DNA of 64,000 bases from the NCBI GenBank assembly GCA_903911145.1, contig CAIWCD010000034.1, forward strand, positions 1 through 64,000, given 5' to 3'. The stretch is from an uncultured delta proteobacterium. Its GTDB lineage: Bacteria > Myxococcota > Myxococcia > Myxococcales > 40CM-4-68-19. Each line of letters opens with the position of its first letter. The first letter of the stretch is position 1. Under the pieces are notes generated by a model that did not search any database, was not told the origin of the DNA, and saw nothing but the letters and a program-made list of their open reading frames with translations. The position numbers and the translations under genes are program-made. Shown here one piece after another: positions 15,997 to 56,158 of this stretch.

Positions 15997-16156
15997 GCCG
16001 CGGAGAGCAACTCGATCCGACGATCACTCCACCTCGTCAACCCAGCAGGACCGCGACATTCGCTGGCCCTTTTTTCCAACGGCGACGCGGTGTTGATTCT
16101 CATTCTCTCACGGGATTGCCGTCGACAGTGCTGGGCGCGGGTGTTACCGTCTGCAA

Positions 16157-50871: not shown

Positions 50872-51288
50872 TCAGCGTCGGTGCAGCACGCCGAGAGCGA
50901 ACGCGAGAATGCCGAGCCCAGCGTGGCACAGCGCAACCGTCGGGTGCCACGGTTCGGGCACGAGGTAGGCGAGCGCGAATCCGCTGAGCGCGAGCGTTGC
51001 GAAGAGTGCGCTCACCGAGACGCCGCTCGCGACGCGCTTGCGCAGCACGAGGCCGACCGGAATGTGGCGCGCGGCGACGAGGCCGAACGCGAAGAGGCTG
51101 AGCATCGAGGAGAGGCCGTGCCAGCGGGCCAGCCACGGATCGAGTGCGCTCGGCAGACCGGACGGATCGCGGCGCAGATCGGAGAGCTGCCACGCGAGTC
51201 CGCTCGCGGTGAGCGAGATTGCAGAACAGACAACTGTCTGTATTTGCCAGCGTGGGAGCGCGTTGGCGCGCGTGCGCTTCGTGGTCAT
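50872..51288 (-). CDS. 4-TM His-containing membrane protein, possible b-type-cytochrome-like redox partner
   Basis: Four hydrophobic segments with several His near membrane segments; ATGA-coupled to apbE. Confidence 0.55.
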   Translation of the reverse strand: MTTKRTRANALPRWQIQTVVCSAISLTASGLAWQLSDLRRDPSGLPSALDPWLARWHGLSSMLSLFAFGLVAARHIPVGLVLRKRVASGVSVSALFATLALSGFALAYLVPEPWHPTVALCHAGLGILAFALGVLHRR

Positions 51289-51998
51289 GCGTGCTGCCAG
51301 GCGGTCGCGCCGAAGCGGGCGAGCAGGGGATCGTCGACGGCGGAGAGCGCGACGATCTTCGTGAGCGCGTCGGAGATGAGGCAGGTGGAGGCGGCGACGC
51401 TGACGTGGCGTGCGCGTGCAGCTCCCGCGAGCAGTGAACGTGCGCTCGCGCCGAAGTAGCTCGTCGCCAACGCTCCTTCGCGCAGCACCATCCAGGGCCG
51501 CACGCCGCCGCGCACTTCGTCGCGCAGTTGCACCGGAACTTCCATTCCCTGCACGCGCAGATCGCCCCCGGCGTTCACCCAGCAGGCGGCGCCCTCGAGC
51601 GCACGGCTGAGCGCCTCGAACGCGCGATCGACCGCGAACCCTTTGCCAATGCCGCCGAGATCGATTCGCACGCCGTCGCTGTGCTTGAACAGACGCCCGT
51701 CTTCGTTGATCGACCAGTCGTGGGGACCGGTGCCTTGCGTGATGTCGAAGCGCCCCGCGCTCTCGCACTGCAGCTCTGCAGCGACGCGAAGAACGCAGGC
51801 CGTCTCGTCGGTGATCCTGCGCGCGGCACCAGCAGGCGCGGCGTTGAAACGGTGGATGTCGCTCTCCGAATGGAAGATTGAAAGCGCGCGCTCCACTTCG
51901 GCGATGGCGAAGTATGCGGCATCGAACGCACGCGCATTGATCGGCGCGTCCGCACCGAGCTCCACAATCGTGCCCAGGGCAGGCCGTGCGCGCCGCAT
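51285..51998 (-). CDS. apbE: FAD:protein FMN transferase (ApbE-like)
   Basis: FDITQGTGPHDW; RIDLGGIGKGFAVDRAFEAL; CWVNAGGDLRVQG. Confidence 0.9.
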   Translation of the reverse strand: MRRARPALGTIVELGADAPINARAFDAAYFAIAEVERALSIFHSESDIHRFNAAPAGAARRITDETACVLRVAAELQCESAGRFDITQGTGPHDWSINEDGRLFKHSDGVRIDLGGIGKGFAVDRAFEALSRALEGAACWVNAGGDLRVQGMEVPVQLRDEVRGGVRPWMVLREGALATSYFGASARSLLAGAARARHVSVAASTCLISDALTKIVALSAVDDPLLARFGATAWQHA

Positions 51999-52000
51999 GA

Positions 52001-52549
52001 TCACTTCAGCGCTCCCACGGATCTCAACGACGCGAGCACCGCGATGCTGCGCCGGGCGCCGTCGGCGACGTGATTGCACGAAAGCGTTGCACCGCTGATG
52101 TTCGAGAGATCGTCGCCGACGCGCAGAGGAGAACTCTCGCTCTTGCCCGCGAACTGCGCGCGCCACGCGGCCTGCCGTACCTCCTGCCCGTGGCTCTCGC
52201 GATACGCGAGGATCTCGACTTCGCGGACCACGCCGTTCAATCCCAGTCCGGCGGCGAACGTGATGCGATCGAACTTTCCGATCACGTCATCGACGATCAC
52301 GGCACCAACGATCACGCCGCCGCGCAGCGCGAGCCGCACGATCCACTTCGCGCGCACGGGCAGGCCCAGCTTGCTCTCGAGCGCACTGCGCGCCTTCTCG
52401 TCGAGGTGAAACTCGCGTGTCTGGAACTGCTCCGCTTCGGGAAAAATCGTGGCCTGCGCCTGATCGCCAGAGAGATATTCGACCGCGAAGGCCGCACTGG
52501 GCGCGGTTGCGGTGGCCGCGGCAGGGATGATGATCGACCAGCGCGCCAT
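52001..52549 (-). CDS. exported FMN-binding-domain protein (flavinylation substrate candidate)
   Basis: Signal-like N-terminus; C-terminal SGATLS motif typical of ApbE substrates; next to apbE. Confidence 0.8.
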   Translation of the reverse strand: MARWSIIIPAAATATAPSAAFAVEYLSGDQAQATIFPEAEQFQTREFHLDEKARSALESKLGLPVRAKWIVRLALRGGVIVGAVIVDDVIGKFDRITFAAGLGLNGVVREVEILAYRESHGQEVRQAAWRAQFAGKSESSPLRVGDDLSNISGATLSCNHVADGARRSIAVLASLRSVGALK

Positions 52550-53824
52550 CTAGAACGCCATCCCGATGCCGAGGTCGAGGCGATCGAACGTCGTGTTGTT
52601 GGCGAACCACTGGTAGTCGCACTTCATCACCACTTGAGGCGTGATGAAGAAGTTCGCGCCAATCGTGAGCACCTTGTCGCTTTGCTGCGGCCAGAGCACG
52701 TTGTCTCCCGGCGTATTCGAGGCGGGAACCAGTCCGGTCGGTGTCACCGGTCCCGTCGTGCCCTTGTAGCGTGCGCCCATGTCGTAACTCTCCCCGCGAA
52801 CGAAGGGCGCGAGGCGGAACATTCCATTCTGCCAGACGCTGTAGGCGGCCTGCAGAAAGTAGCCATTGAACGAGGCGGGAATCGGATTGCCCGCACCCGG
52901 ATTGGCCGCATTCGCCGCGGCAGTATTGCTGATATATCCGGCCGTATAGAGCGCGCTGAGATCGAGCCGTCCCGGCGTGTAGCGGACGTGGGCCTCCCAA
53001 AGGGTCACGAGCGGATCATCCGCTCCTGGAGCGGTCGCGATGCTCGAAGGCTTTACTGCGCGGCCTGTCTTGATTGCGCCTCCGACCACCAGCCCTGGAT
53101 ATCCATGGTAATCGGCCGCGATATATCCAGATAATCGCTTCGCGCTGGCGGACTGCAACTCCTGGTGGCTCGCCTGCAGCGGTGCCATCTCGTGCGCTTC
53201 GAGATCGAATGCGTTCGCATAGAGCGGATAGGTCGGCGCGAAATTCCACGAGGAGAAGCTGTTGCCCGTGGTGACGCCAAGGCTCCAGCCGATGCCGAGA
53301 GGAGTGGTGCCGTGCAGACCGATGCCGCCTTCGCGCCAGGTGCTCGGGAGGATCAGCGTCTCGACGAAGTTTCGCTGCACGCCAAAATACTGCGTCGGTT
53401 CGTGATGCTCATTGATCAGACCGAACGGCATGAGGAAGAGGCCAGCGGTGATGGTCATCCAATCGGTGGGCTGGAACTCCAGATAGAACTGCTCGACCTC
53501 GAACTCGCCGTCATCGCTGGCCGAGGCGACGGAGTGCTCCACTTCCCACTCGGAGTTGAACGAGACGGCGGGGCTGAAGCGATAGCCGATGCCGACGACG
53601 GCGCGCCGCAGGTCAGCGACCGTGCGGTCGAGGTCGCGCGTGGGGCGCGCGTATTCGATCTCGCCGTAGCCCCAGAAATTGATGTTGTCGAGGACCGACG
53701 AAGTGCGCGTCGCGGGTAGAGCGAGCGGTACCTGCTCGGGAGATTGTTCGGGCGCAGAGTCGCCCGCGAGTGCGGCGAAGGGGAGGAGCAGGAGCAGCGC
53801 AAGCAGGAAACGGGGCGGAGCCAT
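52550..53824 (-). CDS. porin-like outer membrane protein
   Basis: Signal peptide; beta-barrel pattern ending in LDLGIGMAF (terminal aromatic). Confidence 0.8.
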   Translation of the reverse strand: MAPPRFLLALLLLLPFAALAGDSAPEQSPEQVPLALPATRTSSVLDNINFWGYGEIEYARPTRDLDRTVADLRRAVVGIGYRFSPAVSFNSEWEVEHSVASASDDGEFEVEQFYLEFQPTDWMTITAGLFLMPFGLINEHHEPTQYFGVQRNFVETLILPSTWREGGIGLHGTTPLGIGWSLGVTTGNSFSSWNFAPTYPLYANAFDLEAHEMAPLQASHQELQSASAKRLSGYIAADYHGYPGLVVGGAIKTGRAVKPSSIATAPGADDPLVTLWEAHVRYTPGRLDLSALYTAGYISNTAAANAANPGAGNPIPASFNGYFLQAAYSVWQNGMFRLAPFVRGESYDMGARYKGTTGPVTPTGLVPASNTPGDNVLWPQQSDKVLTIGANFFITPQVVMKCDYQWFANNTTFDRLDLGIGMAF

Positions 53825-53869
53825 CGGGCGACCGGGGCAGGAGGGAGCAGCGAACCGGTGTTGATGAAG

Positions 53870-53898
53870 TTGAGAATGATTACCAAAATCAATCTCAA
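53870..53898. promoter_or_regulatory. candidate Fur box / 12-bp-arm inverted repeat
   Basis: TTGAGAATGATT-ACCAA-AATCAATCTCAA (one mismatch); GAGAATGATTACCAAAATC matches GATAATGATAATCATTATC at 14 of 19 positions. Confidence 0.6.
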
Positions 53899-54010
53899 CA
53901 TGTCAAGACGGCGCCTGACCCGCGACACGGCGCCTTTGTCGCGCTCGCTCCGCCGACAGGTCGCGCTATAAGCACGCGCGCAGTCCCACCGGACGTTCGG
54001 GAGCATCACG

Positions 54011-56158
54011 ATGGCCCCAATTCCTGCTGCACTCCTGCTGCTCGTCGGCTTCGGGTTTTTCCTCTACACGATGTCGTTCCGCATCCGGCCGCTGCTCTTC
54101 GCGCGCGCGGACAACCGCATCGACAATCCCGAGGAGCGCACGGTCCGCCTGCTCGAGTTCGGGTTTGGCCAGAAGCGCATGCCGAGCAAGCCGGAGAAGG
54201 TCGCGGGCCTCGCGCACATCATGATCTTCGCGGCCTTCATCGTCGCGCAGCTCGGCACGATGACCTCGTTCGGCCTCGCGTTCGACGCGCACTTCGTGAT
54301 GCCGATCTTCAACGAGGGCACCGCGATCGGCCGCGCCTACTTTGCGGCCAAGGACATCATCTTTCTCTTCGGCACGCTCGGCGCGCTGACGTTCCTCTTC
54401 TTCCGTCTGACCAAGTCGAAGGAGCGCATGACTCTCTCGTGGGAGGGCACGTTCATTCTCTGCATGCTTTGCGGCGTGATGTGGACCGACCTCCTCATCA
54501 ACGTTGCCGACATCGCCGAGCGCTCCGAGCTCTCGAAGATGAACGACTTCATTGCGTACGCGAGCTCCTTTCCCGTCTCGGCGATGCTCGCGATGCCTCT
54601 CGAGGGGCGCGGGATCTCGCCGCAGTTCTTCCACGGCCTGATGACGGTGGGCGTGCTCCTGCACGTCGCGATCGTGCTCGCGTTTCTGAACTTCCTGCCG
54701 CTCGGGAAGCACTTCCACATCATCACGGGATTGCCCACGGTCTTCTTCCAGCGCCTCACGCCGCAGGGCCGTCTCTCGAAGCTCGATCTGGAGAACTCGG
54801 AGAAGTTCGGCGTCGCGAAGCTCAACGACCTCTCGTGGAAGGAAGTCCTCGATACCTACTCCTGCACCGAGTGCGGCCGCTGCCAGACCTACTGCCCGAC
54901 CTACGTGACGGGGAAGCCGCTCTCGCACAAGGAAGTGAACCGGGCGATCCGCGCGCACGCGACGGAAGTCTCGAAGCAGATGCCGCTGCCGATCGCGACG
55001 CTCTGGGACAGCCTCAAGCGCGAAGTCGTTGGTACACCGAATATTGGCACTCAAACGATCGACGCGGGCGGCGCTGCGGGCGCGACGGCGTCAGGGCTGC
55101 AGCTCTCGGCGGAGATGATCGAGAAGTTGCCTCCGCTCGTCGGCGAAGGCGGCGTGCTCCCCGATGAGACCGTCTGGGCCTGCACGACCTGCGGCTGGTG
55201 CGAGCAGGCCTGCCCGGTCTTCATCGAGCAGCTGCCGCGCATCGTCGACATGCGGCGCAATCTCGTCCTGATGGAGTCGCGCTTTCCCGATGAGGCCGCG
55301 CGCGTCTTCAAGAACCTCGAGAACCAGGGGAACCCCTGGGGCATGGGCTCGAACCGGCGCGGTGAGTGGTGCGCCGATCTCGACGTGCCGACCGCGGCCT
55401 CGCTCAAAGAGGCGGGCAAGGATTTCGAGTACCTCTTCTTCGTCGGCTGCGCCGGCTCGTTCGACGATCGGCAGAAGAAGGTCTCGCGCGCGCTGGTGAA
55501 GATCCTCAAGGCAGCGAACGTCAGCTTCTGCATTCTCGGTGAAGAGGAGACCTGCACCGGAGACGCCGCGCGCCGCCTCGGCAATGAATACCTCTTCCAG
55601 TCGCTCGCGCAGGCGAACGTCGAGATGTTCAACGGCTACGGCGTGAAGAAGGTCATCACGCAGTGCCCGCACTGCTTCAACACCATCGCAAAGGAGTATC
55701 CGGAGTTCGGCGGCAACTTCACCGTGCTCCATCACTCCGAGGTGATCGCGCAGCTGGTCGCGGACGGGAAACTCAAGCCGGGACAGGTCAAGCTCGAGGA
55801 CGAGGTCACGTACCACGACAGCTGCTACCTCGCGCGCCACAACGGGATCACCGAGGCGCCGCGCCAGACGCTCGTGTCGCTCGGGCTGAAAGTGAAAGAG
55901 ATGGATCGCAGCCGCACCGAGACGTTCTGCTGCGGTGCGGGCGGCGGCCGGATGTGGCTCGAGGAGAAGTTGGGCCAGCGCGTGAATCAGAATCGCGTCG
56001 AGGAGGCCGCGGCGACGCTCGACGGGAAGGGCACGGTTGCGACGGCCTGCCCGTTCTGCCTGACGATGATCAAGGACGGCATCAACGAGACCGGGCGCGG
56101 CGAGCAGATGAACGCGAAGGACATCGCCGAGCTGGTCGCGATGGGGCTGCCGGATTAG
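54011..56158 (+). CDS. membrane-bound HdrD-like Fe-S oxidoreductase (CCG domains)
   Basis: SCTECGRCQTYCPTY; ACTTCGWCEQACPVF; two CCG-type domains (FFVGCAGSFD, YHDSCYLARHN, FCCGAGGG); N-terminal TM region. Confidence 0.92.
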   Translation: MAPIPAALLLLVGFGFFLYTMSFRIRPLLFARADNRIDNPEERTVRLLEFGFGQKRMPSKPEKVAGLAHIMIFAAFIVAQLGTMTSFGLAFDAHFVMPIFNEGTAIGRAYFAAKDIIFLFGTLGALTFLFFRLTKSKERMTLSWEGTFILCMLCGVMWTDLLINVADIAERSELSKMNDFIAYASSFPVSAMLAMPLEGRGISPQFFHGLMTVGVLLHVAIVLAFLNFLPLGKHFHIITGLPTVFFQRLTPQGRLSKLDLENSEKFGVAKLNDLSWKEVLDTYSCTECGRCQTYCPTYVTGKPLSHKEVNRAIRAHATEVSKQMPLPIATLWDSLKREVVGTPNIGTQTIDAGGAAGATASGLQLSAEMIEKLPPLVGEGGVLPDETVWACTTCGWCEQACPVFIEQLPRIVDMRRNLVLMESRFPDEAARVFKNLENQGNPWGMGSNRRGEWCADLDVPTAASLKEAGKDFEYLFFVGCAGSFDDRQKKVSRALVKILKAANVSFCILGEEETCTGDAARRLGNEYLFQSLAQANVEMFNGYGVKKVITQCPHCFNTIAKEYPEFGGNFTVLHHSEVIAQLVADGKLKPGQVKLEDEVTYHDSCYLARHNGITEAPRQTLVSLGLKVKEMDRSRTETFCCGAGGGRMWLEEKLGQRVNQNRVEEAAATLDGKGTVATACPFCLTMIKDGINETGRGEQMNAKDIAELVAMGLPD

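Follow-up and report, generated by a model that had tools for sequence, protein, structure and literature searches.

A compact four-gene operon of a myxococcal bacterium probably encodes an electron-transfer chain that is induced by iron starvation and carries out assimilatory reduction of Fe(III) in the periplasm. It occupies positions 53824-50872 on the minus strand of the window, that is, of the whole 64,000-nucleotide stretch of DNA analysed here, in the order porin, FMN_bind, apbE and a gene for a membrane protein with four transmembrane helices (4-TM), and it is preceded by a sequence resembling a Fur box:

53869-53899, minus strand: Fur-box-like near-palindrome GTTGAGATTGATTTTGGTAATCATTCTCAAC, 31 bp, holding a 19-nt core
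53890-53872, minus strand: Fur-like core GATTTTGGTAATCATTCTC, agreeing with the E. coli Fur consensus at 15 of 19 positions
53824-52550, minus strand: porin gene, 424 aa, with an N-terminal signal sequence; first gene of the operon
52549-52001, minus strand: FMN_bind gene, 182 aa, product exported and of RnfG/NqrC type
51998-51285, minus strand: apbE, 237 aa, a short ApbE-family flavin transferase gene
51288-50872, minus strand: 4-TM gene, 138 aa, membrane protein

The genes are packed end to end, and the junctions, read from the sequence and its translations, are those claimed in the initial annotation: the TAG stop of the porin gene (52552-52550) is immediately followed by the ATG of the FMN_bind gene, a gap of 2 nt separates the latter from the ATG of apbE, and apbE and the 4-TM gene share an ATGA overlap (51288-51285). 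GC by codon position is of the coding type in all four genes. A profile check of the four proteins placed three of them in the expected Pfam families above the cut-off, namely the porin in Porin_O_P (PF07396; E 1.9e-6, 27.8 bits against 20.9), the FMN_bind protein in FMN_bind (PF04205; E 2.5e-5, 25.3 bits against 22) and ApbE in its own family (E 1.2e-22, 81.2 bits against 25.6), but the 4-TM protein gave only a sub-threshold match, to DUF4405 (PF14358; E 0.055, 14.4 bits against 26.7). No domain of the PepSY, MsrQ, NapH, DsbD or NQR-type modules was detected in the four proteins with Pfam at E values up to 1.

In the chain that we favour, Fur would leave the box upstream of the porin gene when iron is low and the operon would be read. 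Electrons from the quinol pool or from a cytoplasmic donor would enter the 4-TM protein, which would carry a heme close to either face of the membrane (at His57/His122 on the periplasmic side and His75/His136 on the cytoplasmic side), and would leave it for the FMN that ApbE would have attached to Thr155 of the exported FMN_bind protein. The porin would admit a ferric chelate, the reduced flavin would convert Fe(III) or the ferric chelate to Fe(II), and FeoB, encoded elsewhere in the genome, would carry the Fe(II) into the cell. The host genome has one clear FeoB (at G000:C46) and two Fur-family genes; feoAB and fur do not adjoin the operon, and an overlapping Fur-like match of 14/19 lies just upstream of feoA. 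The only FMN_bind match in the genome is the operon's own protein and, since there is just this one, it is ruled out that the protein is an Rnf or Nqr subunit.

No other site in the 64 kb of the window matches the E. coli Fur consensus as well as the Fur-like core, which is 48 nt from the start codon of the porin gene, on its upstream side; the site named in the initial annotation is a real one. The promoter match is conserved upstream of homologous operons: within Myxococcota, boxes of at least 14/19 were found in 21 of 50 regions upstream of FMN_bind-operon genes and in 4 of 107 controls (Fisher p 5e-9, before shared regions were removed), and three of the four control matches come from intergenic regions already counted on the operon side and entered a second time through the divergent neighbouring gene; without them, the figure is 1 of 104 independent controls. 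The Anaeromyxobacter-like genomes in these counts are not independent of one another, and the sites span about eight separate lineages. Boxes were not found upstream of the relatives at L025, L026, L030 and L032, or on the plasmid operons of Methylocystis and Bradyrhizobium. A perfect TTGACA is present upstream of the porin gene at 53906-53901; a sigma-70 scan gave no promoter at threshold. The lead to iron that had been drawn from the Fur-like site is strengthened both by the boxes upstream of homologous operons and by the fur, feoB, ideR/feoA, bfd and ferritin genes that neighbour some of them. The 186-bp intergenic region that contains the site is shared with a divergent gene (54011-56158) for a 715-aa membrane Fe-S oxidoreductase with two cysteine clusters, which reads like HdrD/GlpC, and the second-best Fur-like site of the window (13-14/19) is located at 16089-16107, upstream of a gene of 161 aa.

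Homologues of the FMN_bind protein occur in 39 of 195 Myxococcota genomes, and at most of the loci examined a porin gene immediately precedes FMN_bind or is separated from it by one small gene. In two distant genomes of the phylum (L083, L093) all four genes are present but arranged differently. An Anaeromyxobacter-like genus (g15 of family f6, the genus name being a deduction) has, in this order, fur, feoB, a gene for a 72-aa zinc-hook protein, an IdeR-FeoA fusion, porin, FMN_bind and two small TM genes, with a convergent apbE in most genomes. The cluster from fur to the TM genes is kept at L036:450-6914, and also at L033, L034, L035, L037, L038, L040 and L029, giving a direct link to feoB; bfd is added at L034, L035 and L038, the last of which also has a ferritin-domain gene. 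A member of the window's own family (G003) has the order bfd-porin-FMN_bind-apbE, and in other lineages of the phylum the flanking genes are unrelated (SpoU/Obg, glycosyltransferases).

A second type of membrane protein adjoins FMN_bind at L025:4815-5390, L026:4705-5322 and L030:5882-6385. This HFHLF family is about 160-205 aa long, has conserved histidines (E-x-x-HFHLF...H) and gave no Pfam match in those members that were scanned. It is apparently duplicated as TM1+TM2 in f6 (L036:5906-6914) and forms a single 332-aa, 9-TM protein in L085. In the metagenome-assembled genome G003 the porin reads in frame into an HFHLF protein (L027:7022-8653), with the end of the barrel and the start of the HFHLF part missing, and this fusion is probably an artefact of assembly or deletion. 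Other local variations are a small gene without a Pfam match, in some cases a probable lipoprotein, which families f4 and f7 have between porin and FMN_bind (L025:5988-6404, L026:5919-6473), and two adjacent FMN_bind genes with a weakly HFHLF-like membrane gene nearby in G185 (L087:5028-6397).

The full gene order is found outside the phylum. Searches with the FMN_bind, ApbE and 4-TM proteins revealed, on plasmids of alpha- and betaproteobacteria, co-linear operons in which a gene for an outer-membrane protein is followed by FMN_bind, apbE and 4-TM, with all three queries matched in Ideonella dechloratans, Novosphingobium and Sphingomonas; the same layout is present in Methylocystis and Bradyrhizobium, where the 4-TM gene was recognised by its position and by alignment and not by the search. 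A search of genome contigs with the FMN_bind protein returned one distant Firmicutes match only. The operon closest to that of the window is the one in Ideonella, with identities of 44.5% for the porin, 47% for FMN_bind, 46% for ApbE and 33% for the 4-TM protein. The two pair at 100/100 in a tree of concatenated porin and FMN_bind sequences and at 94/92 in a tree of FMN_bind only, and in the concatenated tree an all-Myxococcota clade was rejected (p-AU 4.4e-5), as was a grouping of the window with G003. Because the window pairs with Ideonella and the all-Myxococcota clade is rejected, the trees point to a transfer of the whole operon between phyla, in one direction or the other. The GC of the operon (0.657) equals that of the window and the transfer therefore does not look recent.

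The 4-TM protein is the least familiar of the four. Its family gave matches to DUF4405 or cytochrome b561 that were all below threshold, the best homologue reaching 17.4 bits against the DUF4405 cut-off of 26.7 (homologue E values down to 0.0067), and membership of DUF4405 was rejected on the grounds of that cut-off. An alignment of seven homologues has no invariant columns other than Met1, Gly30, Gly69, Gly89, His57, His75, His122 and His136, and the spacing of the histidines, 18 for His57/75 and 14 for His122/136, was identical in all four homologues checked by position. Conserved histidines had been named in the initial annotation as one of the points on which its reading would stand or fall; there are four of them, invariant and at fixed distances. 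The hydropathy profile has four helices. If the Lys and Arg residues of the N-terminus, of positions 83-85 and of the C-terminus are placed on the cytoplasmic side, the periplasmic face of the membrane would have His57 and His122 close to it and the cytoplasmic face His75 and His136. Two conserved histidines on each of two parallel helices is the pattern of a two-heme b-type cytochrome, for which the 4-TM protein is a candidate, and the 14-residue spacing in the last helix is that of cytochrome b. A single-sequence AlphaFold model was of low confidence (pLDDT 58.7). A rough profile comparison with loci matching the DUF4405 model in relatives, which include ordinary bc-type cytochrome b, gave no match, several of the automatically picked frames being wrong. 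The possibility that the protein is a diverged HFHLF protein was rejected as well, the two having no profile similarity (probability 0.2%), and no HFHLF match was found in the host genome. The reading of these genes as an extracytosolic flavin electron-transfer system, with which the analysis began, is supported by the invariant histidines and by the conservation of the neighbourhood, which extends to the porin-FMN_bind pair across families of Myxococcota and to the full four-gene order across phyla.

The FMN_bind family profile matches solved RnfG and NqrC chains (best RnfG 4e-14). The SGATLS site reported earlier in the exported small protein is present at residues 152-157, and Thr155 within S-G-A-T is the proposed acceptor of the FMN, by comparison with the motif D-x-x-[S/T]-G-A-[S/T]. 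SGAT, Lys136 and Glu118 are conserved in the family, Lys136 being invariant in both family alignments. In NqrC, the pKa of the threonine that accepts the FMN is proposed to be lowered by a lysine (PMC12052999), and it is suggested by analogy that Lys136 may do the same here. The first position of the motif is not conserved, in that residue -6 from the acceptor is Ser149 in the window protein, with an Asp at -8, and the Asp at -6 is missing from the plasmid homologues also.

The main complication for the proposed iron-reduction chain is that its ApbE has no obvious signal peptide or lipobox (it starts MRRARPALGT, as read by eye) whereas the target is apparently Sec-exported, and this, together with the missing Asp, counsels caution in assuming a covalent flavin. 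It is conceivable, though quite unlikely, that the operon's ApbE is a cytoplasmic, partly degenerate relative which attaches no flavin to the FMN_bind protein, and that the latter binds its flavin non-covalently or depends on a second ApbE. The DPRTG loop is missing from the operon's enzyme, and the host genome does hold a second ApbE gene (G000:C31), the product of which has an HHLIDPTTG loop. Nevertheless, Ser180, His198 and Asp210 of the operon's ApbE still align with the catalytic Ser-His-Asp triad in alignments with TM1553 and with the family and are candidate active-site residues; the triad His is itself missing in some relatives. The gene directly adjoins FMN_bind here and in each of the five plasmid operons of proteobacteria, whose short ApbEs group with that of the window and likewise start without a hydrophobic N-terminus, as read by eye. 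Replacement of the Asp in the flavinylation motif of a model protein had minor effects only, and a working cytosolic ApbE is known from Klebsiella (PMC12052999). The second ApbE gene (G000:C31:157906-158745; L044:7907-8821) also encodes a protein without a clear signal peptide, precedes a small gene whose product looks like a Rieske protein, and has no other FMN_bind protein in the genome as a target.

Given a working chain, its substrate and its reach across the envelope could still differ from those proposed. The same carriers may have another job, reducing Cu(II), peroxide or an organic acceptor or serving respiration, with iron control arising because electron carriers built on heme and flavin are costly, or can replace one another, when iron is limiting. 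The operon of Methylocystis has copper genes and genes for multicopper oxidases around it, that of Ideonella adjoins a cytochrome c peroxidase gene and lies near MbnP/MbnM copper genes, and several Myxococcota loci have neither iron genes nor Fur boxes, but the boxes in about eight independent lineages and the feoB, ideR, bfd and ferritin neighbours point to iron acquisition, and we consider another job rather unlikely. A further reading gives the porin a larger part, with the FMN_bind protein docked in or under it and electrons passing through the outer membrane to ferric minerals or chelates outside the cell, as a flavin analogue of the porin-cytochrome (Mtr/Pio) conduits. An outer-membrane beta-barrel gene does adjoin FMN_bind in most operons, and in two Sphingomonadales the outer-membrane position is kept and the protein is swapped for one unrelated to the porin (of the DUF6662 family in Sphingomonas), so that a barrel seems to be needed. 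However, a 424-aa barrel of the Porin_O_P type is probably too narrow for a 17-kDa flavoprotein, there is no gene for an outer-surface reductase, and a plain diffusion channel is the simpler reading. Such a conduit is very improbable, and it is just as doubtful that the porin, FMN_bind and 4-TM proteins make a continuous path from the quinol pool to the outside that would serve iron assimilation and not respiration.

The favoured chain, assimilatory reduction of Fe(III) in the periplasm, is a variant within known flavinylation-based extracytosolic electron transfer, set apart from the systems described by its 4-TM module and its porin. Meheust et al. (2021, PMC8238504) described clusters of NapH-, MsrQ-, PepSY-, DsbD- and NQR/RNF-like classes that likewise combine an FMN_bind substrate, ApbE and an inner-membrane electron module, several of them linked to iron reduction and assimilation, and reported 6230 genomes with evidence of flavinylation and no characterised system. 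The 4-TM module belongs to none of those five classes and, in contrast to those clusters, the operon includes an outer-membrane porin; the main text of that paper does not contain the word 'porin'. The DUF4405/FezC cytochromes (Huang et al. 2024, PMC10979944) are also small membrane proteins with four central histidines encoded beside apbE, but DUF4405 is described in that paper as having six TM helices, whereas the operon's protein has four, falls below the Pfam cut-off and is paired with FMN_bind and a porin. The Caulobacter cluster CC_3059-CC_3063 (PepSY-DUF2271-DUF4198-ApbE) is iron-responsive and Fur-regulated (PMC3751524) and resembles the operon as an iron- and Fur-linked flavinylation cluster with an ApbE; a plasmid-borne ApbE of the DUF2271 type shares with the operon's enzyme the lack of a signal peptide. 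The Caulobacter cluster differs in its flavin carrier, which is DUF2271 and not FMN_bind, in its membrane module and in having no porin. The porin-FMN_bind-HFHLF operons of Myxococcota (L025, L036 and others) have homologous porin and FMN_bind proteins and, in several cases, Fur boxes and feoB, fur, ideR or bfd neighbours, but their membrane protein (HFHLF or TM1+TM2) is unrelated by profile and they encode a longer ApbE, which has a hydrophobic N-terminus. The porin-FMN_bind-ApbE-4TM set does not appear in the main texts of PMC8238504 and PMC10979944 and may stand unnamed in their supplementary tables. The open-access literature searched contains no description of a porin, FMN-binding, ApbE and FeoB set, or of flavinylation together with FeoB and a ferric reductase, in agreement with the initial statement that the arrangement is not a characterised pathway.

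A further membrane module, 138-158 aa long with four histidines and four TM helices and belonging to no named Pfam family, is proposed for flavinylation-linked electron transfer. To our knowledge, the means by which periplasmic ferrous iron is supplied to FeoB in Gram-negative bacteria are poorly settled. The operon is a compact, apparently mobile and Fur-linked candidate for that supply that would bring an electron source, a flavin carrier and an outer-membrane entry of its own.
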